Origin: Acidimicrobiia bacterium
GTDB lineage: Bacteria > Acidobacteriota > Vicinamibacteria > Vicinamibacterales > UBA2999
NCBI GenBank assembly: GCA_016871275.1
Contig: VFZG01000023.1
Location: 1-52,355, forward strand
Length of the DNA: 52,355 bases
Direction: 5' to 3'
In this document: one piece after another, positions 23,597 through 44,881 of the stretch
Layout of the letters: every line of letters starts with the position of its first letter
How positions within the stretch are numbered: position 1 is the stretch's first letter
The notes under the pieces: generated by a model
The model's database searches: none
Told to the model about the DNA's origin: nothing
Seen by the model: the letters and a program-made list of their open reading frames with translations, nothing else
Made by a program: the position numbers and the translations under genes

Positions 23597-25705
23597 CTAG
23601 TTGAACGACTTCCCTTCGGCGGCCAGCTTCTCCAGCAGCGCTGCGGGCTGCCAGTAGTCGCCACACTGCTCGCGATACTGCTTCACCCGCGCCAGCACGG
23701 TCGGCAACCCAATCGCATCGGCATAGAACATCGGCCCGCCGACGTGGCGTGGATACCCAAAGCCGTAGCAGTAGACCGCATCGATGTCGCTGGCGCGGGT
23801 CGCATAGCCCTCTTCAAGGACACGCGCGCCCTCATTCGCAAGCGCGGTCATGATGCGCGCGATGATCTCTTCGTCCTTGACGGCGCGGCGTGTGATGCCG
23901 CGCGTGGCGGCCTCTTCGGCCGCGATTTGATCGACCAGCGGATCGTGGATGCGATTGCGGCTGCCCGCCTCGTACTTGTACCAACCCGCGCCGGTCTTCT
24001 GCCCGTAACGGCCCATCTCGTACAGGCGATCGGGCACCGCTGATTGCGGGCCCTCCGCACGCGTTTTGCCGATCGACTTCAGGAACTGCCGAATGCGCCA
24101 GCCGACGTCGATACCGGCGATGTCCTGCATGCCGAACGGACCGACCGGCATGCCGAACTCGGTCATGGCGTTGTCGATCTGCGGCACGGTGGCGCCTTCT
24201 TCGAGCAACAGCAGCGCCTCACGCATGTAATACGCGAGCATCCGGTTGGCGACGAACGCGAAACAGTTGCCGACCACGACGCCAACCTTGCCGAGCCGCT
24301 TGGCAAGCGCGAGCGACGTGGCGATCGCCTCCTTGCTGGTTTCCTTGCCGCGGACGATCTCCAGCAGCTTCATCACGTTAGCCGGCGAGAAGAAGTGATG
24401 CCCAATCACCTGCCGCGGGCGCCCGCTGGCCTTCGCAAACTCGTCGATGTCGAGCGTCGAGGTGTTCGACGCCAGGATGGACGACGGCCTGGTGATGCGG
24501 CCGAGGTCCGCGAAGATCTGCTTCTTGAGGTTCATGTCCTCGAACGCCGCCTCGACGACGATGTCGACGTGCTCGAAGCCGTCGTAGGCCGTCGTCGGCG
24601 TGATCAGCGACAGCGTTCTGGCCATCGCCTCGGCGGTCATCTTGCCTTTCGCGACCGTGGACTCGTAGTTCTTCCGAATGGTCGCCATGCCCTTCAAGAC
24701 CGCCGCATCGTCCACGTCTTTGAGGAGCACCGGGATGCCGGCATTGGCATAGGCCATGGCGATGCCGCCGCCCATCGTTCCCGCGCCAATCACCGCCGCC
24801 CGCTCGATCTTCGTCACCGGCGTGTCCTTCGGCACGTCCGGCACCTTCGCGGCCTCGCGGTCGGCAAAGAACATGTGCCGCAGCGCGCGGGACTCGTGAG
24901 ACATCACGCAGTCGGCGAACAGTTCGCGCTCGCGCAGGGAGCCGCCCTCGAAGTCGAGCGTGAACGCGCCCTCAATGGCATCAACCGCCGTGAACGGCGC
25001 CTTCACTCCGCGAGCCGTCTTCGCAAGTGCCGCCCGGGCCGCCGCGCAGGCCGCGATTCCGGCGTCACGACTGGCGATCCTCTCTGAGCGCTCGCGCGTT
25101 TTCCTGATGGCTCCGACCTTCGACTGTGCGAATGCGATCGCATCGTCACGCAGGCTGGGACCGGTGATCTGATCGACAATGCCGGCGGCCAGTGCCTGCT
25201 GGGCCGCCACCGGCTTGCCCGCCGTGCACATGTCGATCGCCATCGCGGCGCCGCACAAGCGCGGCAGCCGCTGCGTGCCGCCGGCGCCCGGAATGATGCC
25301 GAGCAGTACCTCCGGCTGCCCGACCTTCGCGTCCGGCGCCATCACCCGGTAGTGGAATGACATCGCCACTTCGAGGCCGCCGCCGAGCGCGGTGCCATGA
25401 ATCGCCGCGACCGTCGGCTTGGTGGCATCTTCGATGCGCATCAGGCGCGCGTGGATGCTCTCCGAACGCTCGAGCGACTGCTCGCGGTTCTTGATGGTGG
25501 CGAAAATCCTGATGTCGGCGCCGGCGATGAAGGTGGAACCCGAGCCGATCAGCACGATCGCGTCGATGCCGGCGTCGGCGCATCCGCGCGCGACCGCCGC
25601 CTCGATGGCTTCCGGCACGCCGGGCCCGAGCGCATTGACCGGAGGGTTGTCGACCGTGAGGACCGCCACGCGGTCCCGGACTTCGTAACGAATCAGTTCA
25701 GGCAT
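23597..25705 (-). CDS. 3-hydroxyacyl-CoA dehydrogenase/enoyl-CoA hydratase (FadJ/FadB-like)
   Basis: This 702-aa multifunctional enzyme hydrates enoyl-CoA and oxidises the resulting 3-hydroxyacyl-CoA. The N-terminal crotonase domain has both catalytic glutamates, E112 in GGGLE and E132 in QPE, with the usual 20-residue spacing. The NAD-binding domain starts near residue 309 with AVIGAGTMGGG, and GHHFFSPANVMKLLEI carries the catalytic histidine. Two C-terminal dehydrogenase domains follow. The ATG at 25705 is one base after the stop of the transporter-binding protein. It is the last gene of the minus-strand operon that starts with the acyl-CoA dehydrogenase at 32349. With the thiolase next door, the beta-oxidation spiral is complete. 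Confidence 0.94.
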   Translation of the reverse strand: MPELIRYEVRDRVAVLTVDNPPVNALGPGVPEAIEAAVARGCADAGIDAIVLIGSGSTFIAGADIRIFATIKNREQSLERSESIHARLMRIEDATKPTVAAIHGTALGGGLEVAMSFHYRVMAPDAKVGQPEVLLGIIPGAGGTQRLPRLCGAAMAIDMCTAGKPVAAQQALAAGIVDQITGPSLRDDAIAFAQSKVGAIRKTRERSERIASRDAGIAACAAARAALAKTARGVKAPFTAVDAIEGAFTLDFEGGSLRERELFADCVMSHESRALRHMFFADREAAKVPDVPKDTPVTKIERAAVIGAGTMGGGIAMAYANAGIPVLLKDVDDAAVLKGMATIRKNYESTVAKGKMTAEAMARTLSLITPTTAYDGFEHVDIVVEAAFEDMNLKKQIFADLGRITRPSSILASNTSTLDIDEFAKASGRPRQVIGHHFFSPANVMKLLEIVRGKETSKEAIATSLALAKRLGKVGVVVGNCFAFVANRMLAYYMREALLLLEEGATVPQIDNAMTEFGMPVGPFGMQDIAGIDVGWRIRQFLKSIGKTRAEGPQSAVPDRLYEMGRYGQKTGAGWYKYEAGSRNRIHDPLVDQIAAEEAATRGITRRAVKDEEIIARIMTALANEGARVLEEGYATRASDIDAVYCYGFGYPRHVGGPMFYADAIGLPTVLARVKQYREQCGDYWQPAALLEKLAAEGKSFN

Positions 25706-25706
25706 G

Positions 25707-26873
25707 TCAGTCGATGTTGGGAAGCTTGAGCGGCAGGAACTTGCCGCCGACAATGTGTGCGGCAATCGTGGTCTGGCGCAAATGCCCCTGTGGGCTGACG
25801 CCGTACAACTCGGACGGCTTGAACTCGTCCGGCAAGGTCGATGCGGCCTCGTCGGCCTTGGCGTGAATCGCCTTGGCGTCGGTGGTGGTGCCGGCCAGCT
25901 CCATCGCGCGCGCCAGGATACGCAGCGCACCGTAGGTCAGGCTGACTTCGCGCGGCGGGTCGCGATCTTCACCCTTCTTCTGCCGGTACTTCTCAACGAA
26001 CCGCGCCGCGCGGAAGTCCGGATGATGCACCATCGGCATGACGCCGACGGCGTTCTCGAGCATCGCCATCGGCACCAGGGTATTCATCTCCTCGAATTTC
26101 GCCTGATCCATGACCACGAATCCACCGTTGAAACCCTGCTCGCGGGCGGCCTTGATCACCAGCGCGGTGGCTTGCGACGGCCCGCCGACGAACAGCACAT
26201 CCGGCTTCTCCGACAGCGCCTTGCTGACCACGCTCGAGAAATCGGTGGTGGTGTTGTAGTCGATCTCGTTGTTGGTCAGCAGCGTGCCGCCCTTGCCTTC
26301 CCACACCGCCGAGAATCCCTTGGTCCACTGTTTCGCGTAGGCGTGAGCACCGGGGATGCGCCCGAGCCGCTTGCCGTGATTGGCCATCATGGTGTCCGCG
26401 AACGCCTCGAAGTAGATGACGTACTTCGGCGGAATCATCAGCGTCAGCGGGTTGCCGTTCTCGACCACCTGGGGTTCGCTCGTGTAGGCGCCGACGATGA
26501 AGGGCGGGTTCGTGGCGTTGAAGCCCTGAATCGCCAGAATGCCGCCGCTGTGCGGGCAGAAGACGACCGGCGAACCGTACTGATGGACCAGGCGTTTGGC
26601 GTTGGTGGCCGACTCGTTCGGAAAGTAGCGATCGTCGAGCGGCTGCACGGTGAAGGTCACCTTGTTGCCGTTGACGGTGATGCCGCCGCTGTCGTTGATG
26701 TCGGCGATCGCCATCTCGATGCCGTCGAGCACGTTGCGCCCGTAGAGCGCGGCGCCGCCGCTCAACGGACCGGTGAACCCAATCGTGACCGTCTCAGGGC
26801 CACCGTCATTCGTCGCGGCGCACCCGGACACGAGGGCCGCGACGACAATGGCGGCGAGAGTTCTGATGTGCAT
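25707..26873 (-). CDS. ABC transporter substrate-binding lipoprotein (branched-chain amino acid/HAAT type)
   Basis: The 388-aa protein is a periplasmic-binding lipoprotein. The signal peptide ends in the lipobox LVSGC with C18 as the lipidated residue. The mature protein starts with VTIGFTGPLSGGAALYG, the LivK/LivJ-type fold (Peripla_BP_6). It supplies the LivHMGF-like membrane and ATPase genes directly upstream. Its place between those genes and fadJ suggests that the ligand is a carboxylic or amino acid fed into beta-oxidation rather than leucine for protein synthesis. This is inference, and the ligand cannot be read from the sequence. The start at 26873 follows a 38-base spacer full of short repeats. 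Confidence 0.9.
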   Translation of the reverse strand: MHIRTLAAIVVAALVSGCAATNDGGPETVTIGFTGPLSGGAALYGRNVLDGIEMAIADINDSGGITVNGNKVTFTVQPLDDRYFPNESATNAKRLVHQYGSPVVFCPHSGGILAIQGFNATNPPFIVGAYTSEPQVVENGNPLTLMIPPKYVIYFEAFADTMMANHGKRLGRIPGAHAYAKQWTKGFSAVWEGKGGTLLTNNEIDYNTTTDFSSVVSKALSEKPDVLFVGGPSQATALVIKAAREQGFNGGFVVMDQAKFEEMNTLVPMAMLENAVGVMPMVHHPDFRAARFVEKYRQKKGEDRDPPREVSLTYGALRILARAMELAGTTTDAKAIHAKADEAASTLPDEFKPSELYGVSPQGHLRQTTIAAHIVGGKFLPLKLPNID

Positions 26874-26876
26874 GTA

Positions 26877-26919
26877 AGCCCCTAAGCCTTGCGCCCGTAA
26901 GCCCTACGCCCCTACGCCC
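26877..26919. repeat. Short tandem repeats of the GTAAGCCC / CCCTACG type
   Basis: The livF-to-binding-protein spacer is composed of imperfect 7- to 8-base words (TAAGCCCC, GTAAGCC, CTACGCCC), and the last one includes the livF stop codon. The words resemble those at 48723 and, more loosely, at 9196. No other function is visible. Confidence 0.55.
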
Positions 26920-27619
26920 CCATGTACGCCCGACGGACCTCGTCGTGCTGCATCAGTTCGGCCGCGGGACCATGGAGCACGAGGCGACCGCCTTCGAGCA
27001 CGTAGCCGCGGTGCGCGATCTCGAGCGCGGCGTAGGCATTCTGTTCCGACAGCAGCACCATTGTACCGGTGCGATTGATGGCCGCAACCGCCTCGAGCAC
27101 CTGCGCCACGACCTTCGGCGCGAGGCTGACCGACGGTTCATCGAGCAGCAGAATCTTTGGCTCGGCCATCAGCGCCCTGCCGACCGAGACCATCTGCTGC
27201 TGGCCACCGCTCAACGCGCCCGCGGGATCGTTCATCCGGCCCGACAGCGGCGGGAACAACTCCAGCACCCTCGCCAGGCGCCGTTGGATCTCGGCCTTGT
27301 CGTGGCAGCGATAGGCGCCGAGCCGGAGGTTGGTCCCGACCGACAGCTCAGGAAACAGCTTGCGTCCTTCCGGACAATGCGACAGACCGGAATCGACAAT
27401 CGCGCGCGGGCTCAACGACGACAGCTCCTGGCCCGCCCACTCAATGCGCGAGCCGCGGTCCGCCGGCGTCAGGCCGCTGACGGCGCGGAAGATCGTCGTC
27501 TTGCCGGCGCCATTGGCGCCAAGCAGCACGACCAGCTCGCCGGGACGGACTTCGAAGGAGACCTCCCGAACAGCCTGGAAGCTGCCGTACGACACGGTGA
27601 GGGCCGACACCTTCAGCAT
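26912..27619 (-). CDS. ABC transporter ATP-binding protein, LivF type
   Basis: The 235-aa ATPase is one of the two that power the HAAT-type importer. Walker A is LLGANGAGKTT, the signature is LSGGQQQ, and Walker B is ILLLDEPSVSLAP, all intact. The C-terminus RRAYMGA is the usual LivF end. The ATG at 27619 overlaps the livG stop by one base (TGATG), so the pair is translationally coupled. The two ATPases are expected to work as a heterodimer under LivH and LivM. Confidence 0.92.
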   Translation of the reverse strand: MLKVSALTVSYGSFQAVREVSFEVRPGELVVLLGANGAGKTTIFRAVSGLTPADRGSRIEWAGQELSSLSPRAIVDSGLSHCPEGRKLFPELSVGTNLRLGAYRCHDKAEIQRRLARVLELFPPLSGRMNDPAGALSGGQQQMVSVGRALMAEPKILLLDEPSVSLAPKVVAQVLEAVAAINRTGTMVLLSEQNAYAALEIAHRGYVLEGGRLVLHGPAAELMQHDEVRRAYMGA

Positions 27620-28377
27620 CAGTGGCGCCCCAGGTAGGCATCCAGCACAGCCGGATCGGTGCGAATCTCATCCGGCGTGCCCTGCGCGATCTTCCTGCCG
27701 TAGTCGAGCACCATGATGCGCTGGCACAACTGCATCACCACCTGCATCTGGTGCTCGATCAGCAGCACGGTGACGCCGGCGGCGGCAATCTCTTCGATCA
27801 GGCTGATCAGACCACGCGTCTGCTCGGCGTTGATGCCTGCTGACGGCTCATCCAGCAGCAGCAGGCGCGGCTTCGCGACCAGCGCGAGCGCGATCGCCAG
27901 GCGCTTCTGCTGCTCCTGCGTGAGATCCTGGGCACGGCGCCCGGCGAAGGCGTCCAGCCCGACGAACGCGAGCGCGTCACGAGACGCGGCGCGGGCCTCA
28001 CCTTCTTCTCGCGTCAAGCGGCCCGTCCGCAACAGCGCGTCGAGCACCCCCGACTTGGTGCGCTGGCGATAACCCACCAGGACGTTGTCGACAGCCGTGG
28101 CATCCGCAAACAACGTCGTGGCCTGGAACGTGCGCGCTACGCCAAGACGCGCGACCTGATGCGCAGCCAGAGCGGTGACGTCGCGTCCATCGAACAGGAT
28201 GCGGCCGCTCGAGGCCGGCAGCGCACGGCTGATCAAATTGAAGAACGTGGTCTTGCCGGCGCCGTTCGGGCCGATGATGCCGGTAATCGATCCCGATGCG
28301 ACCGAGAAGTCCACGCGGTCCACGGCGCGCAGGCCGCCGAACGATTTGCTGAGCTGATGCGCCTCGACCAGCATCAT
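27619..28377 (-). CDS. ABC transporter ATP-binding protein, LivG type
   Basis: The 252-aa ATPase has Walker A GIIGPNGAGKTT, a signature region reading LTQEQQKRLA in place of the usual glycine-containing LSGGQ-like sequence, and Walker B LLLLDEPSAGI. The degenerate signature still has the QQ(K/R) RL part seen in LivG proteins. Two adjacent ATG codons (28377 and 28374) are available. The first overlaps the livM stop as ATGA. The C-terminal DAYLGRH is characteristic of LivG. Confidence 0.92.
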   Translation of the reverse strand: MMLVEAHQLSKSFGGLRAVDRVDFSVASGSITGIIGPNGAGKTTFFNLISRALPASSGRILFDGRDVTALAAHQVARLGVARTFQATTLFADATAVDNVLVGYRQRTKSGVLDALLRTGRLTREEGEARAASRDALAFVGLDAFAGRRAQDLTQEQQKRLAIALALVAKPRLLLLDEPSAGINAEQTRGLISLIEEIAAAGVTVLLIEHQMQVVMQLCQRIMVLDYGRKIAQGTPDEIRTDPAVLDAYLGRH

Positions 28378-29318
28378 GACGGCTTGACCTCGCTCACGCG
28401 CTGCCGCATCAGCGATCGCGCCGCGCCCGCCAGGCCGGCCGGCATGAAGAGGATCAGCAGCACCAGCGCCAGGCCGAAGATGATCATCTGGTAGTGCTGC
28501 AGGACGGCGAGCACCTGCGACAGCCCATAGACAATGAACGTGCCGGCCACCGGACCGGCGAGCGAGCCGATGCCGCCGACCATGACGTAGAGCAGCGTGT
28601 TGAACGTCATTTCGACGTTGGCCGACTCCGGCCCTAGAAAGCCGATGAAGCCGGCAAACAATCCGCCGGCCAATCCGGCGAGCGAGGCCGAGATCGTGAA
28701 GGCCAGCCGTTTGGCCGCCATCACGTCCACCCCGACCGCAGCCGCCAGCGGTTCACTTTCGCGCACCGCCATCAGCGTGCGGCCGACCGGCGATCGCACC
28801 AGCCGTGAAATCGCGAGCACGGTGATCACGAGGAAGAACAGCGCCAGGTACGATCGGGCGAGGGTCGAGTCGAAGCTGATCGGCCCGATGGGCCCAGGCC
28901 CGGGAATGCCGATCACCCCGATGTGGCCGCGCGTCAGCGACTCCCACTTCTGGATCACCAGGTGGATGATGATCCCGACCGCCATGGTGAAGATCGCGAA
29001 GTAATGACCCTTGCTGCGCAGGCAGATCGAACCGATCGCATAGCCCGACACCGCGCAGAGCGCGACACCGGCGGGCAGGCCGATCCAGAACGAGATACCG
29101 GCCTTGGTCGCGAGCAGCGCGAGCGCATAGGCACCGATGCCGAAGAATCCGGAATGGGCCAGCGACAGCTGGCCGGCGAGCCCGAGAATGACGTTGAGGC
29201 CGCACGCCGAGATTGCGAACACGTATCCCTGCGTCAGGATCTGCAGGTAGTACTCGTTGGGCAACAGCAACGGCACGATCACGGCGGCGAGCAGCGCGGC
29301 CCACGGCAACAGGTGCAT
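28374..29318 (-). CDS. ABC transporter permease, LivM type
   Basis: The 314-aa integral membrane protein has about eight or nine hydrophobic spans and the family segments GLAGQLSLAHSGFFGIGAYA and MVGGIGSLAGPVAGT. It forms the translocation pore with the LivH-type protein. The reading frame is open far upstream across livH, but the family N-terminus and a two-base gap to livH support the ATG at 29318. It overlaps livG by four bases (ATGA). Confidence 0.92.
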   Translation of the reverse strand: MHLLPWAALLAAVIVPLLLPNEYYLQILTQGYVFAISACGLNVILGLAGQLSLAHSGFFGIGAYALALLATKAGISFWIGLPAGVALCAVSGYAIGSICLRSKGHYFAIFTMAVGIIIHLVIQKWESLTRGHIGVIGIPGPGPIGPISFDSTLARSYLALFFLVITVLAISRLVRSPVGRTLMAVRESEPLAAAVGVDVMAAKRLAFTISASLAGLAGGLFAGFIGFLGPESANVEMTFNTLLYVMVGGIGSLAGPVAGTFIVYGLSQVLAVLQHYQMIIFGLALVLLILFMPAGLAGAARSLMRQRVSEVKPS

Positions 29319-29320
29319 CG

Positions 29321-30181
29321 TCACACCGCTGCCTTGAACAGGCCCGCCGGCCTGAACGTGAAGACCAGCGCCAGCACGACAAAGGCAATCAAATCCTGGT
29401 AGGTGGCCGACACGTAGGTGCCGCCAAGGCTTTCCGCCAGCGCCAGCAGGTAGCCGCCGATCAACGCACCGGTGACGCTGCCCATGCCGCCGAGCACGAC
29501 GATGACGAACGCCTTCAAGGTCACGACCGTGCCCATCGCGGGATAGACCAGGCTGATCGGCGCGATCAATGCGCCGGCAACGGCGGCCAGCGCCGCCGAA
29601 ATCGCAAACGTGGCCATCGCCACGCGGCCGGTGTCGATGCCGACCAGCAGCGCCGCTTCCGGATTCTGCGCCGTCGCGCGAATCGCCGCGCCCGCCGTGG
29701 TGCGCGTCAGGAATACCAGCAGCGCCATCATCGACGCCGCCGCGGCCCCCAGCAGAATCAGACGATGCGCGGCGACCGGCAGGCCGAACAACGACACGAT
29801 TCCGCCGTAGGGCGTATCGGTGTGACGGAATTCCGGACCCCAGATGTTCTGCGCCACGGCCTCGAGCAGCAGCATCACACCGAGCGCCGCGATCATCGAG
29901 TTCAGCGGGGGCGCGTGGCGCAGCGGTCGAAACACGCTCCGCTCGAGCACCGCGCCGGCGATGGCGAGCGTGACCACCGCGATGGCCATCGCGATCCAGT
30001 AGTGAACGCCGGCTCGCATCACCAGCGCGTACGACAGGTAGGCGCCGAACATGAACAACTGGCCATGGGCGAAATTCGGCACGTTCATGGTGCCGTAGAT
30101 CAAGGTCAGGCCGAGCGCGACCAGGCTGTAGACGCTGCCGGTCACGAGCCCGTTGAGAATCTGCTGCGCGAAGAGTTCCAT
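29321..30181 (-). CDS. ABC transporter permease, LivH type
   Basis: The 286-aa membrane protein starts ELFAQQILNGLVTGSVYSLVALGLTLIYG in two recognisable blocks and contains GGMGSVTGALIGGY near the C-terminus, both LivH hallmarks. It has about eight spans. It follows the MaoC hydratase by three bases and precedes livM by two, so transporter and beta-oxidation enzymes are made from one message. Confidence 0.92.
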   Translation of the reverse strand: MELFAQQILNGLVTGSVYSLVALGLTLIYGTMNVPNFAHGQLFMFGAYLSYALVMRAGVHYWIAMAIAVVTLAIAGAVLERSVFRPLRHAPPLNSMIAALGVMLLLEAVAQNIWGPEFRHTDTPYGGIVSLFGLPVAAHRLILLGAAAASMMALLVFLTRTTAGAAIRATAQNPEAALLVGIDTGRVAMATFAISAALAAVAGALIAPISLVYPAMGTVVTLKAFVIVVLGGMGSVTGALIGGYLLALAESLGGTYVSATYQDLIAFVVLALVFTFRPAGLFKAAV

Positions 30182-30184
30182 CGG

Positions 30185-30624
30185 CTAGTGGTAGTAGCGA
30201 ACGAGCCACTCCGCCGCACAGCACGGCTTCTCCGAGCCGTCACGCTCGATGACGATGCGCCATGTCGCCTGCACGCCACCGTCGACGTCGTCCACGGCCA
30301 GCAACGTGCAACGGCCGCGGACCCGCGATCCGCACGGCAGCGGCGCAGGGAACCTGACCTTGTTGAGACCGTAATTGACGCCCATCCGCGCGCCGTCGAT
30401 GGCGCCGGCGGCGTCACGCAGCAGCCGGCTGGCGAGAGCGAGCGTGTAGAACCCGTGCGCAATCGTGCCGCCGTACTGCGAGTCGCGCGCGGCGCGGTCG
30501 GAGTCGACGTGAATCCACTGGCGATCGCCGGTGATGTCGGCAAACGCCGTGACCTGCTCCTGCGTCACCTCGCGCCACGGCGACACCATCTCCCGTCCGA
30601 TGACGTCGTTCAGCCGATCGACGG

Positions 30625-30628
<4 letters not shown>
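30185..30628 (-). CDS. MaoC-like (R)-specific enoyl-CoA hydratase
   Basis: The 147-aa hot-dog-fold protein has the hydratase-2 catalytic motif D-x4-H at D35 and H40 (GDRQWIH) followed by HGFYTLALAS, the typical MaoC/NodN pattern. It should hydrate enoyl-CoA to the (R)-3-hydroxyacyl form, or act on a branched or hydroxylated acyl-CoA. FadJ in the same operon makes the (S) isomer, so this enzyme may serve a special intermediate. The start overlaps the acyl-CoA dehydrogenase stop as ATGA. Confidence 0.87.
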
Positions 30629-32349
<1,721 letters not shown>

Positions 32350-32435
32350 GGGGTGGCAACGATAGCATCGAGGTCCGCAATGCGACAACGCTCAATCGGT
32401 GTAAGCTCTTGTGCCTGTCCCGAGGATCCGTCCGC

Positions 32436-33212
32436 ATGCGCCCTGTATCGGAACTCTTCACCCTCACCGGCCGCGTCGCCATTGTCACCGGCGGCTCGCG
32501 GGGTCTCGGCGAGGAAATGGCCGAAGGCCTGGCCGAAGCCGGCGCGTCGTTGATGCTGTGCGCCCGCCGCGAACAGTGGCTGACGCCCACCCTGGAGTCG
32601 TTCCGCACGCGCGGCTTCACGGTGGATGGCATGGTCTGCGACGTCTCGAACCCCGAGCAGGTGCAGGCGGTGGTCGATCGCACGATCGCCACCTACCGGC
32701 AGGTGGACATCCTCGTCAACAACGCGGGCGTGAGCTGGGGCGAGGCACCGGAGACCATGCCGCTCGACAAGTGGCAGAAGGTGATCGACATCAACCTGAC
32801 CGGGGCGTTCCTGTTTTCGCAGGCGGCCGGCCGGGAGATGCTGAAGCGCCGCTATGGCCGGATCATCAACATCGCCTCGATTGCCGGCCTGCACGCCTCG
32901 ACGACGGGCGCGCACTATGCGGGCTACGCCGCGAGCAAGGCCGGGCTGATGGGACTCACACGCGAACTGGCGGGCACGTGGGGGCGCCAGGGGATTCGCG
33001 TCAATGCGATCGCGCCGGGTTTCTTCCATTCCCGGCTCGCCGACCCGGCCATCGTCCACGCCGAACCGGGCATCAAGGCCACCAGTCCCATTCCACGCGT
33101 CGGCGATGCCGGCGAGTTGAAGGGCGTCGCCGTCTTCCTGGCGTCTGACGCCTCGAACTACATCACCGGGCAGACCATCGTGGTCGACGGCGGACGCACG
33201 ATCGCCGGATGA
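32436..33212 (+). CDS. Short-chain dehydrogenase/reductase
   Basis: The 258-aa classical SDR has the cofactor motif TGGSRGLG (residues 18-25), NNAG (95-98), catalytic S148 and Y164-x3-K168. It ends [16 protein letters not shown] as in the FabG/gluconate-5-dehydrogenase-like group. I chose the ATG at 32436 because GAGGA lies nine bases before it. An earlier start is possible. It is the first gene of a three-gene operon with an acyl-CoA synthetase and an ACAD10/11-type dehydrogenase. In the levulinate (lva) pathway an SDR in such company reduces a 4-ketoacyl-CoA to a 4-hydroxyacyl-CoA, but other roles are possible. Confidence 0.9.
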   Translation: MRPVSELFTLTGRVAIVTGGSRGLGEEMAEGLAEAGASLMLCARREQWLTPTLESFRTRGFTVDGMVCDVSNPEQVQAVVDRTIATYRQVDILVNNAGVSWGEAPETMPLDKWQKVIDINLTGAFLFSQAAGREMLKRRYGRIINIASIAGLHASTTGAHYAGYAASKAGLMGLTRELAGTWGRQGIRVNAIAPGFFHSRLADPAIVHAEPGIKATSPIPRVGDAGELKGVAVFLASDASNYITGQTIVVDGGRTIAG

Positions 33213-34891
33213 AGACCGACTCTCCGACGCCGCTCAAGGCAGGGCGTCCCCGTCCGTGGCTGGAGCACTACGACTACTGGGTGCCGCGCCACGCCAACTA
33301 TCCGCGACGCCCGTTGTACGAGATCCTCCGGCGGACCGCCGCTGAAAGCCGTGAGCTGACGGCGACGTCGTTCCTGGGCGCCGATCTGACGTTTGGCGAG
33401 CTGAAGGACGACGCCGATCGACTCGCGACGTCGCTCGCCCGGCTCGGCATCACCAAGGGCGATCGCATCGGCGTGATGCTGCCGAATTGCCCGCAGTATC
33501 CGATCGCGGTCTTCGCGATCCTGCGGCTCGGCGCCATCGTCGTCAACGTGAACCCGGCCTACACGCCGCCTGAGGTCGCCTTCATCACGCGCGACTCCGG
33601 TCTGCGTCTGCTGATCACGCTCGACCGCCTGGTGCCGGCGGTCACGCCGCTCGCCGGAACGACGGCGCTGCAGACGATCGTCATCACGTCGCTGACCGAG
33701 TTTTCACCCGCAGCCAACGCGCCGGCAGCAATGGCCGGAACGCTCAGGTTTCAGGACCTGATCGCCGAATCGACGATCGACTTGCCACGCGTGGAGATCG
33801 ATCCGGAAGAAGACCTTGCGGTCCTGCAGTACACCGGCGGCACGACCGGTGTGCCGAAGGCGGCGATGCTCACGCACTGCAACATCTTTGCCAACACCAT
33901 CCAGACCGAGCTGTGGCATCACCGCAGCGTCGAGCGCGGCCGCGATCGGTTCCTGATGGTGATTCCGTATTTCCACATCTACGGCCTGACGGTCGGCATG
34001 ATGCGTGGCGTGTGGCAAGGCGCGCAGCAGATCCTGATCCCGCAATACGACGTCGAGATGGTGCTGGCGGCGCTGCGCGACTACCAGCCGACCTACTTCC
34101 CCGCGGTGCCGACCATTTTCGTGTCCCTGCTCAACCATCCGAAGTTACGCGAGTTCCATCTCGATCGGGTGTGCACGTTCAACAGCGGATCCGCGCCGAT
34201 CGCGATGGACGTGCTCGAGCAGTTCGAGCGCGCCATCAATGTGCCGCTCAACCAGGGATACGGCCTGTCGGAAGCATCGCCGGTCACGCATTCCACGCCG
34301 CACCTGGCAAAACGCCAGCCGGCCAGCATTGGCCTGCCGATGCCCGACACCGACGTCAAGATCGTCGATCTCGAGACCGGCATCCGCGAATTGCCGCTCG
34401 GCGAAGCCGGCGAGCTGTGCGTCTCGGGACCACAGGTCATGAAGGGCTACTGGAATCGTCCTGATGAAACGGCAATCGCGCTGCGGACCGATGCCGACGG
34501 AGTAGTGTGGCTGCACACCGGCGACGTCGCGCGCCTTGATGAAGACGGCTTCACCTACATCGTGCAGCGCAAGAAGGACATGATCATCGTGGACGGCTAC
34601 AACGTCTATCCGTCTGACGTCGAGGCCGCGATCCACTCCCACCCCGCGGTCATGGAAGTGGCAGTGATCGGCGTGCCGCATGCCTACCACGGCGAGGTGG
34701 TGCGCGCCGCGGTGGTGCTGAAGCCGGGCCAGACGGTCACTCCCGCCGAGCTCGAGGCGCATTGCGCCAGCCGGCTGACCGAGTACAAGAGACCCCGCTC
34801 CATCGAGATCAGAGACAGCCTGCCGAAGACTGCGGTCGGCAAGGTGTTGTACACGAAGCTGCGTGAAGAGGCGGCCGCCCAGCATGTTTGA
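33209..34891 (+). CDS. Acyl-CoA synthetase (class I adenylate-forming enzyme)
   Basis: The 560-aa enzyme activates a carboxylic acid to its CoA ester through an acyl-adenylate. The ATP-binding P-loop [10 protein letters not shown] spans residues 208-217, the A5 motif [10 protein letters not shown] is present, and the A8 hinge is [20 protein letters not shown]. The catalytic lysine is in the C-terminal PKTAVGK. It resembles long-chain and 4-coumarate-type ligases, and its chain length cannot be assigned. Start and SDR stop overlap as ATGA, and its end overlaps the next gene by eight bases. Confidence 0.93.
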
Positions 34892-36080
34892 GCCCTCACC
34901 ACAATCGCGCGAGCTGCGCGAGCGATTGATCGCGTTCTTCGATCGCTACATCGCTCCCAACGAGGCGTTGTTTCACGAACAGATCGCCCAGCAGCGATGG
35001 CAGGTGCCGCCAATCGTCGAGGAATTGAAGGTCAAGGCGCGCGCCGATGGGCTATGGAACCTGTTCCTTCCCGACAGCGAGCACGGCGCAGGACTCACCA
35101 ACCTGGAATACGCGCCGCTGTGCGAAGTGATGGGACGATCGCCGGGCTTTGGCCCCGAGGTCTTCAACTGCTCCGCGCCGGATACCGGCAACATGGAGGT
35201 GCTCGCCCGCTATGGCACCAAGACGCAGCAGGATCAGTGGCTGACACCGCTGCTCGAGGGCCGTATCCGCTCGTGCTTTTCGATGACCGAGCCGGCGGTG
35301 GCATCCTCCGATGCCACCAACATCCGCTCCACGATCGTCCGCGACGGCGACGACTACGTGATCAACGGACACAAGTGGTGGATCTCCGGCGCCGGCGATC
35401 CCCGCTGCAAGATCTCCATCTTCATGGGCCTGAGCAATCCCGACGCGCCCACCCACCAGCGGCAGTCGATGATCCTCGTCCCGATGGATGCCAGGGGCGT
35501 GACCATCAAGCGGATGATGCACGTCTTCGGCTATGACGATGCGCCGCATGGGCATGCGGAGATCCTCTACGAGAACGTGCGCGTGCCGGCGGGCCACATG
35601 CTGCTGGGCGAAGGCCGCGGCTTCGAGATCGCGCAGGGACGGCTCGGGCCGGGGCGCATCCATCACTGCATGCGGCTGATTGGCGTGGCCGAGCGGGCGC
35701 TCGACACCATGCGCCAACGGGTCACGTCGCGCGTGGCGTTTGGCAAGACGCTGGCCGAACAGGGCACCATTCGCCGCGACATCGCGCAGTCGCGCATCGA
35801 GATCGATCAGGCCAGGCTGCTGACGCTGCGCGCGGCGCACTTGATGGATACCGTCGGCAACAAGGCGGCGCGCGCGGAGATTGCGATGATCAAGGTGGTG
35901 GCGCCGAACGTCGCGCTCGCCGTGCTCGATCGCGCCATTCAGGCGCATGGCGCGGCCGGCGTCAGCCAGGACACCTTCCTGGCGCACGCGTGGGCCGGCT
36001 CACGAACGCTTCGCCTCGCCGACGGACCCGATGAAGTACACCTGGAAGCGATCGCGAAGATTGAGTTGAAGAAAAGCTAG
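34884..36080 (+). CDS. ACAD10/11-type acyl-CoA dehydrogenase
   Basis: The 398-aa protein belongs to the ACAD10/ACAD11 branch of acyl-CoA dehydrogenases. It has the signature [14 protein letters not shown] (residues 134-147) and, at the usual catalytic-base position, D380 in LADGPDEVH instead of the glutamate of normal enzymes. In this branch the enzyme works with an APH-fold kinase: a 4-hydroxyacyl-CoA is phosphorylated and the phosphate is then eliminated to give an enoyl-CoA. In animals both parts are fused. Here the kinase is a separate gene at 36665-37729. The ATG at 34884 fits the family N-terminus and overlaps the synthetase stop. Confidence 0.9.
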
Positions 36081-36652
36081 GAGCCCCAGGGTGGCGGCGG
36101 CGCATCGACCGGCTTCGTCAGGTCGAACTCGACCCGAAACAGCCGTCCAGGTCTCGACAACTCGTAGGCCAGCATCCTGCCCGGGTGAATCTCCATGGCC
36201 CAGGTGTTGGTGTTCGAGACCTCGCGCTTTTCACGCGTGAACAGCGCCTTCGACTCGTCGTCGACGGGAAACTCCTGGCGTGTCGAGGTCCCGGCGGCAA
36301 CCGACTCGCCGCCGTACATCGTGAAGACGTCCGGGCTGCCGTCCTGGTGGCGATGGTCGTGCTTGAACCGCAGGCGGTCGCCGAGCCGCGTGATGACGAA
36401 CGTGCGCGACCGATCCTCGCCGACGTGAAACGGCACCAGCGCGCGATCCGCCGTGCAGGTGCGGACATGGATCACCAGCCGCTGGCCTTCGAAGGCATCG
36501 TTGGGCTGCGCCGGCGTGTTGGCAACAATGCGGCCGGCGAAGGCCTTGCCGCACAGCGTCGACAGCGCATCGAAGAATCGTTCCGCCGGCGCCCGCCCGG
36601 CCTGCTCGACCATCGCCAGCGCCACCAGCAGTGTCAGTGTCTTGATCGTCAT
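36077..36652 (-). CDS. Exported protein of unknown function
   Basis: This 191-aa protein has an N-terminal signal peptide ([17 protein letters not shown]) and a two-cysteine mature part ([16 protein letters not shown]). Conserved-looking features are [16 protein letters not shown], with a cluster of histidines, and the C-terminal [17 protein letters not shown] recall similar hypothetical secreted proteins in Acidobacteria and Proteobacteria but know no function. It is not LvaB-like, since that partner is small and cytosolic. It shares the stop bases CTAG with the ACAD10/11-type gene and starts 12 bases after the APH kinase stop, so it is likely cotranscribed with the kinase. Confidence 0.75.
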
Positions 36653-36664
36653 TCGAGTCTCCAG

Positions 36665-37729
36665 TCACGCGGTGGTCAGGGGGTTCGCCGCGATGTCCCA
36701 CGCCCGTTCGGCGATCAGGCGCGTCGCGGCGCCACGTTGCAGGGCATAACTCGATGCGGCATTGCCTTGCAACCCGCGGGCGTAGACGCCCTGGAGGATG
36801 CTGGCCAGCCTGAACATTGAAAACGCCAGGTAGAAATTCCAGTTCGGCACGCCGTCACGACCGGTGCGCCGGCAATAGGCCGCGACGTACAACGCTTCAT
36901 CGGGCATGCCGGCGCGTTCGGGATCGACATCTTCCTGTCGGCCCAGCGCTTCCGCCGGCAGGTGATACGTCAGACAGTTGTAGGCCAGATCCGCAAGCGG
37001 ATGCCCGAGCGTTGACAGCTCCCAGTCGACGATCGCGACGATGCGCGGCTCGGTGGGATGAAACAGCAGATTCTCGACGCGGTAGTCGCCGTGCACGATC
37101 GCCGTTTCGTCGCCGGGCGGGATGTGCGCCGGCAGCCACTCCATCAGGCGATCGATCGCGGGAATCTCACCGGTCTTCGCGGCCACGTACTGCTGACTCC
37201 ATCGACCAATCTGCCGCGCGTAGTAGTTGCCGGGCTTGCCGTAGTCGCTGAGGCCGACCGCGGCCACGTCAACGCGGTGCAGCCGCGCCAGCACGTCGGC
37301 CATGTCGTCGTACATCGCCGCACGGTCGGAGGCGGTGACACCCGGCAAGTGCGGCTGCCGGAACACCCGTCCCGCAACGCACGCCATCACGAAGAACGGC
37401 GTGCCGATCACGCGATCGTCATGGCACATCAGCCGGGTCGGCGGCACGGGCACCTGGCCGGCCAGCGCGGTCATCACCCGGTACTCGCGCTCAACGGCGT
37501 GCGCCGACGGCAGCAACTGGCCGGGGGGCTTCTTGCGCAACACGTAGTCGCCGCTGGCGGCATGCAGGAAATAGGTAGGGTTGGATTGTCCGCCCTCGAA
37601 TTGGCGAATCTCGACTGGACCTCGAAAACCGGCGAGGTGATCCGCCAGGTAGCGCTCGAGCGACGACGCGTCGATCTCGTGACCCTTTCGAACGGTGGTG
37701 GTCTGTCTCAGGACCTCCGCGCTGCTCAT
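36665..37729 (-). CDS. APH-family kinase of the ACAD10/11 (LvaA-like) type
   Basis: The 354-aa protein has the aminoglycoside-phosphotransferase fold: ATP-binding region FEGGQSNPTYFL and YVLRKKPPG, catalytic loop HGDYRVEN with H213, D215 and N220, and metal ligand D235 in VDWELSTLGHPLADLAYN. That last segment is the hallmark of the acyl-CoA-linked kinases found at the N-terminus of ACAD10 and ACAD11, not of antibiotic-resistance enzymes. The likely substrate is a 4-hydroxyacyl-CoA. It faces its presumed dehydrogenase partner across one small gene. No antibiotic-resistance role is suggested by the motif or context. Confidence 0.9.
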   Translation of the reverse strand: MSSAEVLRQTTTVRKGHEIDASSLERYLADHLAGFRGPVEIRQFEGGQSNPTYFLHAASGDYVLRKKPPGQLLPSAHAVEREYRVMTALAGQVPVPPTRLMCHDDRVIGTPFFVMACVAGRVFRQPHLPGVTASDRAAMYDDMADVLARLHRVDVAAVGLSDYGKPGNYYARQIGRWSQQYVAAKTGEIPAIDRLMEWLPAHIPPGDETAIVHGDYRVENLLFHPTEPRIVAIVDWELSTLGHPLADLAYNCLTYHLPAEALGRQEDVDPERAGMPDEALYVAAYCRRTGRDGVPNWNFYLAFSMFRLASILQGVYARGLQGNAASSYALQRGAATRLIAERAWDIAANPLTTA

Positions 37730-37756: not shown

Positions 37757-39793
37757 ATGAAGACGACAGAATGGGTAGGGGCAGCGGCGCTCGTCGTCGC
37801 GGTCAGCTGGCCAGCGGTCGAGTCACGTGCCGCCCTCGAGATTCGCACGTTGTCGTCGCGGCCCGACCTGGTCAGCGGCGGTGACACCTTGGTCGCCATC
37901 AAGGCGCCGGCCGGCACGCCTGCCGATCAACTGAGCGTCACGCTGAACGGCATGGACGTCACGCCGCGCTTCACGTTCGATGCCGCCAGCGGCGAGTTCC
38001 GCGGGTTGGTCGAGGGCCTGCGGCCCGGCCCGAATCGGCTGATGGCGACGACGCGAAAGCCGCGCGCCGAAGCCGGCCTCACGGTGACCAACCATGCGAT
38101 CACCGGACCCATCCTGTCAGGCGCACACATCACGCCGTATGAATGCGGCACCGAAGCCTCCGGCCTCGGGCCGGCGCTCGATGCCAACTGCTCCGCTCCC
38201 CGGAAGACGTGGCAGCTCTACCGATCGACGGACAACACCTTCAAGCTGCTCACCGCTCCGTCGGGTCCGCCTCCGGCGGACCTGGCGACCACGACCACCA
38301 CCGACGGCAGGTCGGTGCCGTACATCGTCCGCGTGGAATCTGGTGTGATCAACCGCGCGATCTACCAGTTCGCGGTCCTCGACGACCTGGCGAGCTGGAA
38401 TCGCAAGGTGGTGGTGTCGTTCGGCGGCAGCTCGGGCACGCAGTACATCCAGGGCGTGATGGCGCCGCCTCCGGGCGGGGGCGCGCTCAACCACCAGGCG
38501 CTGTCGAAGGGTTTCGGCTACCTGATTTCGTCGGAGCTCGTGAACGGCCGGCGCGGCAACGGCGTGCTGCAGGGCGAGACGCTGATGATGATCAAGGAGT
38601 ACCTGATCGAGCGCTACGGTGTGCCGAAGTTCGTCATCGGCAGCGGCGGCTCCGGCGGCGCCATCCAGCAGCTGGTGATCACGCAGATGTATCCGGGACT
38701 GCTCGACGGGCTGATGCCAGGCCTGACTTTCCCGGATTCGAGTCTCCACACTATAGACAGCATCCTGCTGACCAACCTGTGGCCGAAGCTGGACAAGGCG
38801 GTGTGGACACAGGAGAAGATCACCGCCGTCGAAGGGTTCACACCGGGCACCGCACGGGCGTGGAACACCGCCTACGGCCGGCTGGGCGTGCCGACCAACG
38901 CCGCCGGTTGCGCGCTCGCCGACAAGACATTGGTGTTCGATCCGGTGACGAATCCCAAGGGCGCGCGGTGCACGACGCAGGACATTCGCGTCAACATCTA
39001 CGGACGCGACCCCAAGACCGGCTGGGCGCGGCGGCCGACCGACAACGTCGGCATCCAGTACGGCCTCGGCGCCCTGAACGCCGGCCAGATTACCGTCGAC
39101 GAATTTCTCGAGGTCAACGAGCAGGTCGGCGGCACCGACATCAACGGCCGGGTGGTCGCCGAGCGGACCGAGGGCGATCTGATCGCGCTGAAGAACATGT
39201 ACGAGAGCGGCTTGAAGGCATCCTACAACGCCGCGCTCGGCCACGTGCCAATCATGATGTCGCGCATCTATACCGACAACCGCGGCGATATTCACGATCG
39301 CCAGCGAGACTTCGTGGTTCGAGCACGACTGGAGCGCGCCAACGGCCGCTCGGACAACTCGGTGATCTGGATTGGCTCGACGACGGCGGCCACCAACACG
39401 CTCGACACCATGAACGCGTGGCTCGACGCCATGGCGGCGGATCCCGCGCCGCTGTCGATCGACAAGGTCGTTCGGCACAAGCCGGCCGATGCCGTCGATA
39501 CGTGCTGGGACGCGTCCGGCAACAAGATCGTGGAGCCGGCCAGCTTCACCGCGGCCAACCAATGCAACGCGCTCTACCCGGTGCACAGTGAGCCGCGGCT
39601 GGTCGCGGGCGCGCCGCTGACCAACGACGTGATGAAGTGCCAGCTGAAGCCGATCGACTTCCGCGACTACCGCGTCGCGTTCACCGACGCGCAGCAGGCG
39701 CGCGCCAGGCGCGTGTTCTCCACCGGCGTGTGCGACTTCACGAAGCCCGGAGTGGCACAGGTGCCAATCAAGGGGACGTACCGGAAATACTAG
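37757..39793 (+). CDS. Secreted DUF6351-type putative alpha/beta-hydrolase
   Basis: The 678-aa protein has a signal peptide, a short N-terminal beta domain (LSSRPDLVSGGDTLVAI), and a large catalytic-looking region. The segment FVIGSGGSGGAIQQL with S299 resembles a nucleophile elbow. Cysteines in pairs suggest disulfides, consistent with export. I recognise the family as DUF6351, which in other bacteria sits near steroid, tannin or aromatic hydrolases, but no substrate is established. It is divergent from the APH kinase by 27 bases and convergent with the amidase by 10 bases. Confidence 0.75.
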   Translation: MKTTEWVGAAALVVAVSWPAVESRAALEIRTLSSRPDLVSGGDTLVAIKAPAGTPADQLSVTLNGMDVTPRFTFDAASGEFRGLVEGLRPGPNRLMATTRKPRAEAGLTVTNHAITGPILSGAHITPYECGTEASGLGPALDANCSAPRKTWQLYRSTDNTFKLLTAPSGPPPADLATTTTTDGRSVPYIVRVESGVINRAIYQFAVLDDLASWNRKVVVSFGGSSGTQYIQGVMAPPPGGGALNHQALSKGFGYLISSELVNGRRGNGVLQGETLMMIKEYLIERYGVPKFVIGSGGSGGAIQQLVITQMYPGLLDGLMPGLTFPDSSLHTIDSILLTNLWPKLDKAVWTQEKITAVEGFTPGTARAWNTAYGRLGVPTNAAGCALADKTLVFDPVTNPKGARCTTQDIRVNIYGRDPKTGWARRPTDNVGIQYGLGALNAGQITVDEFLEVNEQVGGTDINGRVVAERTEGDLIALKNMYESGLKASYNAALGHVPIMMSRIYTDNRGDIHDRQRDFVVRARLERANGRSDNSVIWIGSTTAATNTLDTMNAWLDAMAADPAPLSIDKVVRHKPADAVDTCWDASGNKIVEPASFTAANQCNALYPVHSEPRLVAGAPLTNDVMKCQLKPIDFRDYRVAFTDAQQARARRVFSTGVCDFTKPGVAQVPIKGTYRKY

Positions 39794-43597: not shown

Positions 43598-44192
43598 GCG
43601 CCAGGCGCTGCCCGGTCGCCTGTAGCAGGCGATCGAGCTGTGCCTGCGGAATCTCAATCGGCGCATAGATCACCACCAGCAACGCCGTCGTCGCGGTCGT
43701 CACCATCGTGCGCGCTGAGTCCGAGGTGGGGTTGCCAAACGCGCCGATGCTGTCGGCCACGGTGATCCTGCCGCCTACGTTGACCTCGTCCTTGCGAATG
43801 CCGGGATACGACTCACCGTCCGCCCCCAGCCGCATCGTCACCGGGCCGCTGATGTTCGACGCGTCGTAGAGGCCGTACGGCAGCTGATACTCCAGCGAGC
43901 ACCAGTTGACGACGTCCACCGCGGAGTTGATGCGGGGAATGGTGTCGCCCTTGCGCACGCGGCGCAGCAATGCTTCGTTCGACGGACGTGTCCTGGTGGG
44001 ATCGATCCCGACTCGCTTGTACATCGTCCGCACCGCCGCCGATTCGGCCGGCGGCGCCATCCGTACCCTCGCTTCGGCCTCGGCCAGCAGAGCATCAAGC
44101 CGGTGCTCGTGCGCCACGACGGTGGCGCCGGTCCACCACATCACGGCGGGCCGGACGATCGAGGCGAGCTGTGGCGCGAGCGTAAAGGTCAT
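43551..44192 (-). CDS. B3/B4 tRNA-binding-domain protein
   Basis: The 213-aa protein matches the stand-alone B3/B4 domain of the phenylalanyl-tRNA synthetase beta subunit: YKRVGIDPTRTRPSNEALLRR, NSAVDVVNW and GGRITVADSIGAFGNPTSDS. Such proteins are thought to help proofread mischarged tRNA or bind tRNA, though their roles are mostly untested. The ATG at 44192 overlaps the plsC stop as ATGA, so both are cotranslated. A longer open frame upstream lacks family sequence. The 3' end overlaps the S9 peptidase by 47 bases. Confidence 0.87.
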   Translation of the reverse strand: MTFTLAPQLASIVRPAVMWWTGATVVAHEHRLDALLAEAEARVRMAPPAESAAVRTMYKRVGIDPTRTRPSNEALLRRVRKGDTIPRINSAVDVVNWCSLEYQLPYGLYDASNISGPVTMRLGADGESYPGIRKDEVNVGGRITVADSIGAFGNPTSDSARTMVTTATTALLVVIYAPIEIPQAQLDRLLQATGQRLALILGGSGSVSSAPAS

Positions 44193-44881
44193 GGGCGCGC
44201 GCGGGCGGCCTCGGCTTCGACGCTGGGACGAATGACGTCGCGCACGCGATCGGCCAGGGCACGCACATCCTGCGTGTCCGGCTGCTCGGTCGCAACGGTC
44301 TCGATCGGCTCGTGCACGATCAGCTCGACATGCGCGGGCCTGGTGGTGAGCTCGCCCTTCTTCATCACGTGCCGGCTGCCAATCACCGAAATCGGCACGA
44401 GCGGCAGGCCGGCTTGCATGGCCAGCATGATGCTGCCACCCTTGAACCTGCCCAGGTAGCCGTCCGCGCTGCGCGTGCCCTCGGGAAAGATGATCAGCGA
44501 CAGTCCGTTGGCGGTCAGCCGGCTGGCCCAGCCGATGATGCCGGCGCGATCGGGCTTGCTGCGATCGACCAACAGGTGGCCGGTTCGCTTCAAGTGCGGC
44601 CCCAGCATGGGAAAGCTGCCCAGCGACTCCTTGGCGATGATGCGCAACTGGAACGGGATGTGCCAGAACAGACACGGGATATCGTAGATGCTCTGGTGAT
44701 TCGCGACGAACACGTAGGTCCTGCCCGGCACGAGGCGCTCGAGTCCCCGGACGGTGACCTCCACGCCGGTCGTCGCGAGAATCAGCCACGACCACACCCG
44801 CGCGCAGTTGTGCGCGAAGTAGCCCCGGCGACCGAAGAAGCTCGACGTGATCGAGGCAATGCCCAGCACGATCGTGTACAC
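44189..44881 (-). CDS. plsC: 1-acyl-sn-glycerol-3-phosphate acyltransferase
   Basis: The 230-aa membrane enzyme adds the second fatty acid to lysophosphatidic acid. The catalytic motif is NHQSIYD and the acyl-acceptor motif is FPEGTRS, both intact, and a hydrophobic N-terminal segment anchors it. The first standard start in frame is the GTG at 44881, but the frame stays open with hydrophobic residues (WLIPAIG) back to the yacL stop, and a CTG at 44932 lies one base after that stop. The true start may be further upstream. The C-terminus overlaps the B3/4 gene by four bases. Confidence 0.88.
   Translation of the reverse strand: MYTIVLGIASITSSFFGRRGYFAHNCARVWSWLILATTGVEVTVRGLERLVPGRTYVFVANHQSIYDIPCLFWHIPFQLRIIAKESLGSFPMLGPHLKRTGHLLVDRSKPDRAGIIGWASRLTANGLSLIIFPEGTRSADGYLGRFKGGSIMLAMQAGLPLVPISVIGSRHVMKKGELTTRPAHVELIVHEPIETVATEQPDTQDVRALADRVRDVIRPSVEAEAARARP

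Follow-up and report, generated by a model that had tools for sequence, protein, structure and literature searches.

The window analyzed here, a 52,355-nucleotide stretch of contig VFZG01000023.1 from an Acidimicrobiia bacterium assembly (GCA_016871275.1; 3.96 Mb, 124 contigs), carries a putative hydroxyacid-degradation module built around an APH-fold kinase and an acyl-CoA dehydrogenase (ACAD) of the ACAD10/11 type. A preliminary description, made from the letters alone, had proposed four adjacent genes for a short-chain dehydrogenase/reductase (SDR), an acyl-CoA synthetase (ACS), this ACAD and the kinase, and Pfam found all four. The SDR gene (32436-33212, + strand; adh_short_C2, 5e-60) is the first of a + strand run, and its product presumably converts between the oxo and hydroxy forms of an acyl chain or acyl-CoA. 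Its end overlaps by 4 bases the gene of an AMP-forming ACS (33209-34891, +; AMP-binding, 7e-93), for which the best NCBIfam models are long-chain-fatty-acid CoA ligases, every one below its cut-off. The ACAD gene (34863-36080, +; ACAD C-terminal domain, 5e-36) encodes 405 aa from 34863, or 398 aa from the start at 34884, and completes the run, in which gene ends overlap. The kinase gene (36665-37729, -; APH, 7e-55) lies on the opposite strand facing the run, and a gene for a 191-aa exported protein (36077-36652, -; export judged by eye from the N-terminus) stands between the convergent ACAD and kinase genes. The proposed adjacency passes over this convergent placement of the kinase.

SDR, ACS, ACAD and kinase are found together again, 75-88% identical, in G006 (L010), which belongs to the same genus. 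SDR homologues, 72-88% identical, adjoin the ACAD or the kinase in G002, G003, G004, G006 and G007, and the ACS is a neighbor of the ACAD in G001, G003, G006 and G007 (75-79% identical). Given the strong Pfam E-values and the recurrence in G006, chance is no concern for the gene calls. The genes, their family and clade, the conserved residues and the conserved neighborhood are established here, and the module is very probably a split bacterial ACAD10/11-type hydroxyacid-degradation pair whose activities are predicted by orthology.

Residues and phylogeny of the dehydrogenase and the kinase

The closest PDB matches of the ACAD were 4hr3 and the ACAD11 entries 8v3u and 2wbi (1e-137 to 4e-131), with other acyl-CoA dehydrogenases in PDB far behind (next best 6e-37, against 4e-131); identity to the mouse ACAD11 domain was 54.6% by BLAST. 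As the preliminary description had read from the sequence, the ACAD has an SSDATN signature (residues 148-153) and an Asp in place of the usual catalytic Glu. This residue, D387, aligns with D753 of ACAD11, and a FadE-type dehydrogenase encoded in the window has the usual Glu in that column. Asp occupies the column in 84 of the 87 aligned rows; the exceptions are the window FadE, L037 and L128, and in the latter two it is perhaps missing through frameshift or misalignment. The phosphate-holding residues R260 and the HCMR motif at 268-271 (H268, R271) are present, and the window FadE is the sole exception to R and H in the R260 and H268 columns (86/87 rows each). The counts were made after removal of matches below 150 bits, matches covering fewer than 230 query residues and frames with stops, loci fetched more than once were reduced to a single copy, and ACAD rows shorter than 340 aa were dropped from the alignment. 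According to the available part of PMC12440821, non-conservative substitution of R626, H634 or R637 was the most disruptive to the ACAD activity of ACAD11, R637 to Lys had only a partial effect, and the residues whose substitution ablated or impaired activity there are conserved in the window ACAD. In a tree of 59 of 91 rows, the window ACAD and its genus relatives fall inside a 49-row clade (100/100) with mouse ACAD11, and the ACADs of the levulinate (lva) operon type, L228 and L229, fall outside it; like the kinase trees, this tree has long branches and hand-picked rows. The ACAD is predicted to eliminate phosphate from a 4-phosphoacyl-CoA, giving a 2-enoyl-CoA.

For the kinase, the closest PDB matches were 3dxp (2e-115) and the ACAD11 entry 8v3v (4e-90), and identity to the mouse ACAD11 kinase domain was 43.2% by BLAST. 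The kinase contains the ACAD-type segment WELSTLGHPLADLAYN that had been noted earlier, and the residues for catalysis or CoA contact R81, E82, R172, D215, N220 and D235 are present. D215, N220, R172 and the pair R81-E82 match D220, N225, R176 and the Arg beside the alpha-C Glu of ACAD11, an Arg that is numbered R86 in PMC12440821 and 84 in the ACAD11 copy used here; in the available part of that paper, R86 and R176 were placed at CoA by simulation. The kinase trees were built from hand-picked subsets, a first of 66 rows and a second of 61 rows, which gives the ACAD11 grouping. A 17-row clade (100/99) holds the window kinase, 3dxp and ACAD11. Kinases of G002, G003, G007 and G018, with others from several Pseudomonadales and plasmid clusters, make up a separate 9-row clade (100/99), and the 28 rows on the window/ACAD11 side are divided by a 100/100 split from 33 LvaA-type kinases linked to the DUF6285 family. 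The first tree also separated the second of these clades (13 rows, 99/98). Both proteins lie in ACAD11 clades and outside the lva-type clades, and together with the residues this bears out the split ACAD10/11-type pair of the preliminary description. The kinase is predicted to be a 4-hydroxyacyl-CoA kinase.

Kinase and ACAD occur together in 9 of 43 family genomes, the ACAD alone in 1, the kinase alone in 1 and neither in 32 (Fisher 1.7e-7, with relatedness ignored and two kinase clades pooled on the kinase side). In G000, G004 and G006 the two genes converge on either side of a slot, and so they do in G001, where the kinase is cut by the contig end. Whole-genome searches of five genomes with the kinase gave a strong ACAD match (1e-138 or better) in four, and in three of these the linkage was already known. 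No fused kinase-ACAD was detected, in that none of the 146 kinase frames extracted held a kinase open reading frame above 460 aa. No kinase domain was seen in a 786-aa ACAD frame of G019, which probably results from a frameshift that continues into a GC-rich open frame.

Three genomes of the same genus, G002, G003 and G007, carry a kinase of the other clade, about 36% identical to that of the window (L120:5932-9391, L121:785-4272, L119:5719-7556). It accompanies a 74-76% identical ACAD, an SDR and a MaoC-like gene in G002 and G003 (identified by Pfam in G002 and by likeness in G003), and sits with the SDR alone in G007. A histidine phosphatase recurs beside such kinases (L133, L134, L138, L139, L140, L189, L191, L193 and L194; by annotation in five records, by Pfam in L189 and by eye in the rest) and might recycle stalled 4-phosphoacyl-CoA.

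Neighboring genes and the slot between the convergent genes

The preliminary description had singled out the exported protein between dehydrogenase and kinase. The protein is present, and the oddity has a simple explanation in that this position is a variable slot in relatives. It has no match in Pfam or NCBIfam, and a homologue was found in only 2 of 42 other family genomes (G007 and G031), the one in G007 on a contig apart from the ACAD and kinase of that genome. The slot of G004 and G006 is filled by a RES-Xre toxin-antitoxin pair (L126:9181-10303 and L125:8412-9513, respectively; Pfam RES 3e-27, 2e-33) and that of G001 by a PQQ-repeat protein and a creatininase-family protein, so it looks like a tolerant insertion site. 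On the grounds of this rarity, the separate contig in G007 and the other occupants of the slot, a role as third subunit was rejected, and the exported protein was judged to lie outside the module. G031 holds five copies of its family (L113-L117), two of them in tandem.

Linkage to a second beta-oxidation operon and an importer had also been claimed, and these genes were found. A - strand run diverges from the SDR run and begins with a FadE/VLCAD-type acyl-CoA dehydrogenase (30625-32388; NCBIfam NF058590, 644 bits, cut-off 600) and a MaoC-like enoyl-CoA hydratase (30185-30628; MaoC_dehydratas, 1e-23). A Liv-type ABC importer identified by Pfam follows (25707-30181, -), with two permeases (28374-29324 and 29321-30181; 7e-44 and 3e-46), two ATPases (26912-27619 and 27619-28377) and a binding protein (25707-26873), and the run ends in a FadB-like hydratase/3-hydroxyacyl-CoA dehydrogenase (23597-25930, -; 3HCDH_N 2e-60, ECH_1 9e-35). 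Beyond it lies a thiolase gene (22388-23572, +; Thiolase_N 1e-59, Thiolase_C 6e-47). On the other side, a DUF6351 tannase-like hydrolase (37757-39793, +; PF19878, 3e-224) is divergent from the kinase, and such a hydrolase is also found within about 5 kb in G001 and G006 (L124, L125); amidase genes are among the window neighbors as well. A like divergent pairing, ACAD-ACS against FadE-MaoC-permease, occurs in G007 (L118), where MaoC was identified by Pfam and the permease by a weak 29% match, and where the SDR and its different kinase lie away from ACAD-ACS.

The levulinate operon and DUF6285

The lva-type reference proteins used for comparison were identified by gene order and by the LvaA/C/D/R identity pattern quoted in the available part of PMC6692424, and are not the P. 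putida sequences; their clusters were found in genomes reached from a Pseudomonadales record (probably Pseudomonadaceae). One form (L293) has the order PrpR-N/sigma-54 regulator, kinase, small protein, ACAD, SDR, synthetase, DUF485 protein and sodium:solute symporter, and a second form (L228) has a histidine phosphatase. The identities between the two forms, 57% for the kinase, 79% for the ACAD, 64% for the SDR and 52% for the regulator, and their gene order agree with the published figures for P. citronellolis and P. putida (59, 78, 67 and 52%, respectively; PMC6692424). Compared with L293, the window kinase is 25% identical to the LvaA-type protein over 264 residues, the ACAD 36% to the LvaC-type, the SDR 38% to the LvaD-type and the ACS 29% to the LvaE-type protein. 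The L293 LvaC-type protein is itself 36% identical to mouse ACAD11 (53% positives), and the identities given for LvaC in the available part of PMC11342911, 62% to ACAD10 and 56% to ACAD11, do not fit it; if the published value is right for identity, LvaC itself might be nearer ACAD11 than the rows used here. In the window genes scanned with Pfam (19016-50159, with gene 44189-44881 scanned only within another frame), no PrpR-type sigma-54 regulator and no DUF485/symporter pair were detected. The preliminary description had called the module Lva-like. It read the phosphorylation-elimination mechanism correctly, but the trees and the low kinase and ACAD identities speak against kinship with the Lva enzymes; from the residues and the placement in ACAD11 clades, with the lva-type proteins outside, the chemistry is predicted to be Lva-like and the family is ACAD10/11.

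The LvaB position is occupied by a small DUF6285 protein in all three cases tested in L291-L293 and in L228. That no LvaB-like partner is visible beside the module had already been remarked, and this now extends to the whole assembly, where a distant lvaB homologue was sought with PF19802 and none scored above the cut-off (best 13 bits, E 0.5, cut-off 28.1); a second DUF6285 profile found none in the window. DUF6285 occurs in 37 of 244 genomes from the order of G043, and a kinase was present at all 30 DUF6285 loci fetched. At 10 of these 30 (L234, L236, L237, L238 and L240-L245) the two appear to be joined in a single frame of 462-493 aa. Of the 30 loci, 18 have an ACAD stretch no more than 1.5 kb away, and therefore not every DUF6285-linked kinase need act on a 4-hydroxyacyl-CoA. 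A profile made from the DUF6285 stretches recovered 30/30 positives and none of 58 loci of other kinases, with 5 of the 61 non-DUF6285 kinase rows having fewer than 600 bases on one side.

Arg was found at neither CoA-contact column in 31/31 distinct DUF6285-linked kinases (32 rows; L197 repeats L252) and at both columns in 67/67 other kinases, a set collected for its resemblance to the window kinase and to relatives of that kinase. Because the residues follow one deep split, this pattern amounts to one evolutionary contrast and not to 98 independent observations, and the alignment near the second Arg is uncertain between clades. On the sequences compared, DUF6285/LvaB goes with the other kinase clade, which offers a possible reason why the lva operon requires a small helper protein and the window module may manage without one. 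Since DUF6285 is fused or next to kinases that lack the CoA-contact Arg, it may supply the CoA contact. In the available part of PMC11342911, the ACAD10 kinase domain and a Burkholderia LvaA orthologue work with substrate made by LvaE, and the term LvaB is absent from the main text. A literature search for the term DUF6285, in which other names for LvaB were not searched, returned no mention. In the P. citronellolis-like lva cluster, a DUF6285 gene (L228:7018-7392) is flanked by the genes of the LvaA-type kinase and the histidine phosphatase. The available part of PMC6692424 reports an lvaB homologue as absent from its P. citronellolis strain, where, as a short or divergent reading frame, it may have been overlooked.

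Within the genus, G000, G001, G004 and G006 have a kinase of the ACAD10/11 lineage, and G002, G003 and G007 one of a third clade. We tentatively consider that bacterial 4-hydroxyacyl-CoA kinases could form anciently separate lineages, a self-sufficient ACAD10/11 lineage with two CoA-binding Arg and an LvaA lineage, reliant on DUF6285, in which these Arg were lost or were never present, and that kinases have been exchanged around a conserved ACAD-SDR core. In the LvaA lineage, DUF6285 would then act in substrate or CoA recognition, as a partner or as a fused domain. The function of the 12-kDa LvaB towards LvaA, a question raised by work on levulinate, thereby becomes directly testable.

Alternative explanations, proposed pathway and known systems

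The locus could be a levulinate operon proper of the LvaABCDE family that lost LvaB and gained the exported protein; its enzyme classes are those of Lva, and the window ACAD and the LvaC-type protein share the Arg, HCMR and Asp residues. This is very unlikely and is largely refuted by the trees, in which kinase and ACAD both fall outside the lva clades. Lva-operon membership was rejected on the trees, the low identities, that of the ACS included, the lack of DUF6285 in the assembly and the lack of the regulator and symporter genes among the window genes scanned, all of which L293 has. We give hardly any credence to an ordinary acyl-CoA dehydrogenase lying beside an unrelated APH-type kinase. 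It would suit the labels, which are only Pfam APH and Acyl-CoA_dh with no NCBIfam model above cut-off for either protein, but it is opposed by the Asp in place of the catalytic Glu, the HCMR motif, the clade placement and the co-occurrence across genomes. The same phosphorylation-elimination chemistry might instead serve another hydroxylated acyl-CoA, ring-derived, branched or with a C3 or C5 hydroxyl. The DUF6351 hydrolase, the amidase neighbors and the Liv-type importer are compatible with other natural substrates, but we regard this as improbable; the phosphate-binding residues are identical to those of ACAD11, and, in the available part of PMC11342911, ACAD10-bearing cells gave phosphorylation with 4-hydroxyhexanoate and no phosphorylated product with 5- or 6-hydroxyhexanoate.

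Several observations weigh against a split ACAD10/11-type pair. The R271 column is Arg in 85 of the 87 rows, the window FadE among them, and is therefore non-discriminating. The first kinase tree had no supported grouping, among sets of at most half its rows, that included ACAD11, and the grouping of the kinase with ACAD11 appeared only after the rows were changed. An ACAD of at least 200 bits lies within 5 kb at 27 of 80 kinase loci, many of them with short flanks. The fifth genome searched whole, G043, has only 41-43% identical ACADs, which fall outside the ACAD11 clade, and G007 has an 85% identical ACAD and no kinase of the same clade. Of 11 Pseudomonadales loci inspected, 7 have an ACAD about 68% identical to that of the window, beside a LysR-like regulator (Pfam-confirmed in one case) and with no kinase in 1.5 kb.

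For the ACAD10/11-type pair, the synthetase would make the CoA thioester of an acid with an oxygen at C4, carried already or reduced there by the SDR; alternatively, upstream beta-oxidation would shorten an even-position hydroxy acid to the C4 stage. The kinase would phosphorylate the 4-hydroxyl of the 4-hydroxyacyl-CoA via Asp215, with Arg81 and Arg172 holding CoA. The 4-phosphoacyl-CoA would pass to the ACAD, where Asp387 and FAD would act at the alpha and beta carbons and Arg260, His268 and Arg271 would hold the departing phosphate, yielding a 2-enoyl-CoA with no net oxidation. Ordinary beta-oxidation by MaoC, FadB, thiolase and FadE would follow, and uptake of the acid may be through the Liv-type importer. 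All of these activities are inferred from orthologous proteins of mouse, human and bacteria that have been assayed, among them a Burkholderia orthologue that replaces each ACAD10 domain in vitro according to the available part of PMC11342911. A 4-hydroxyacyl-CoA substrate is well grounded on this basis, and the SDR direction, the chain length and the importer substrate are assigned more weakly. Levulinate in particular is not indicated, and as a candidate substrate it was rejected, nothing favoring it over other 4-hydroxy acids. Because the ACS is long-chain-like (with all models below cut-off) and the FadE is VLCAD-type, acids longer than levulinate are suggested; the families point, for example, to fatty acids with a hydroxyl at an even position that are shortened as far as the 4-hydroxy stage, or to gamma-lactones opened outside the cell. 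With this locus, a well-resolved ACAD10/11-type pair amenable to assay is assigned to a bacterial genus, and the family is set apart from the levulinate operon, for which it could readily be mistaken.

In animals, the ACAD10/ACAD11 fusion feeds 4-hydroxy fatty acids into fat breakdown. The window pair resembles mammalian ACAD11 and ACAD10 (PMC12440821 and PMC11342911, in their available parts; PDB 8v3u, 8v3v and 2wbi) in both domains, in the active-site and CoA-contact residues and in the predicted chemistry; however, the mammalian protein is one fused polypeptide, whereas the window has two separate convergent genes, no HAD domain and bacterial neighbors. It is a split homologue like other bacterial pairs, and is filed under the ACAD10/11 type in that sense only. 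The closest solved structures, 3dxp for the kinase (51% identity) and 4hr3 for the ACAD, are separate polypeptides as in the window, were both deposited as putative acyl-CoA dehydrogenase and are presumably bacterial. The Pseudomonas lvaRABCDEFG operon is alike in its kinase, ACAD, SDR and synthetase classes and in its phosphorylation-elimination logic, but differs in having another kinase clade with DUF6285 (LvaB), another ACAD branch and its own regulator and symporter. The plasmid clusters of Bosea (L141) and Terrarubrum (L137) share the ACAD10/11-type ACAD, phosphotransferase, SDR, Liv-type importer and beta-oxidation genes and differ in gene order, the Terrarubrum kinase being 54% identical and the Bosea kinase longer-branched. 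The window pair clearly belongs to an enzyme family that is already known.

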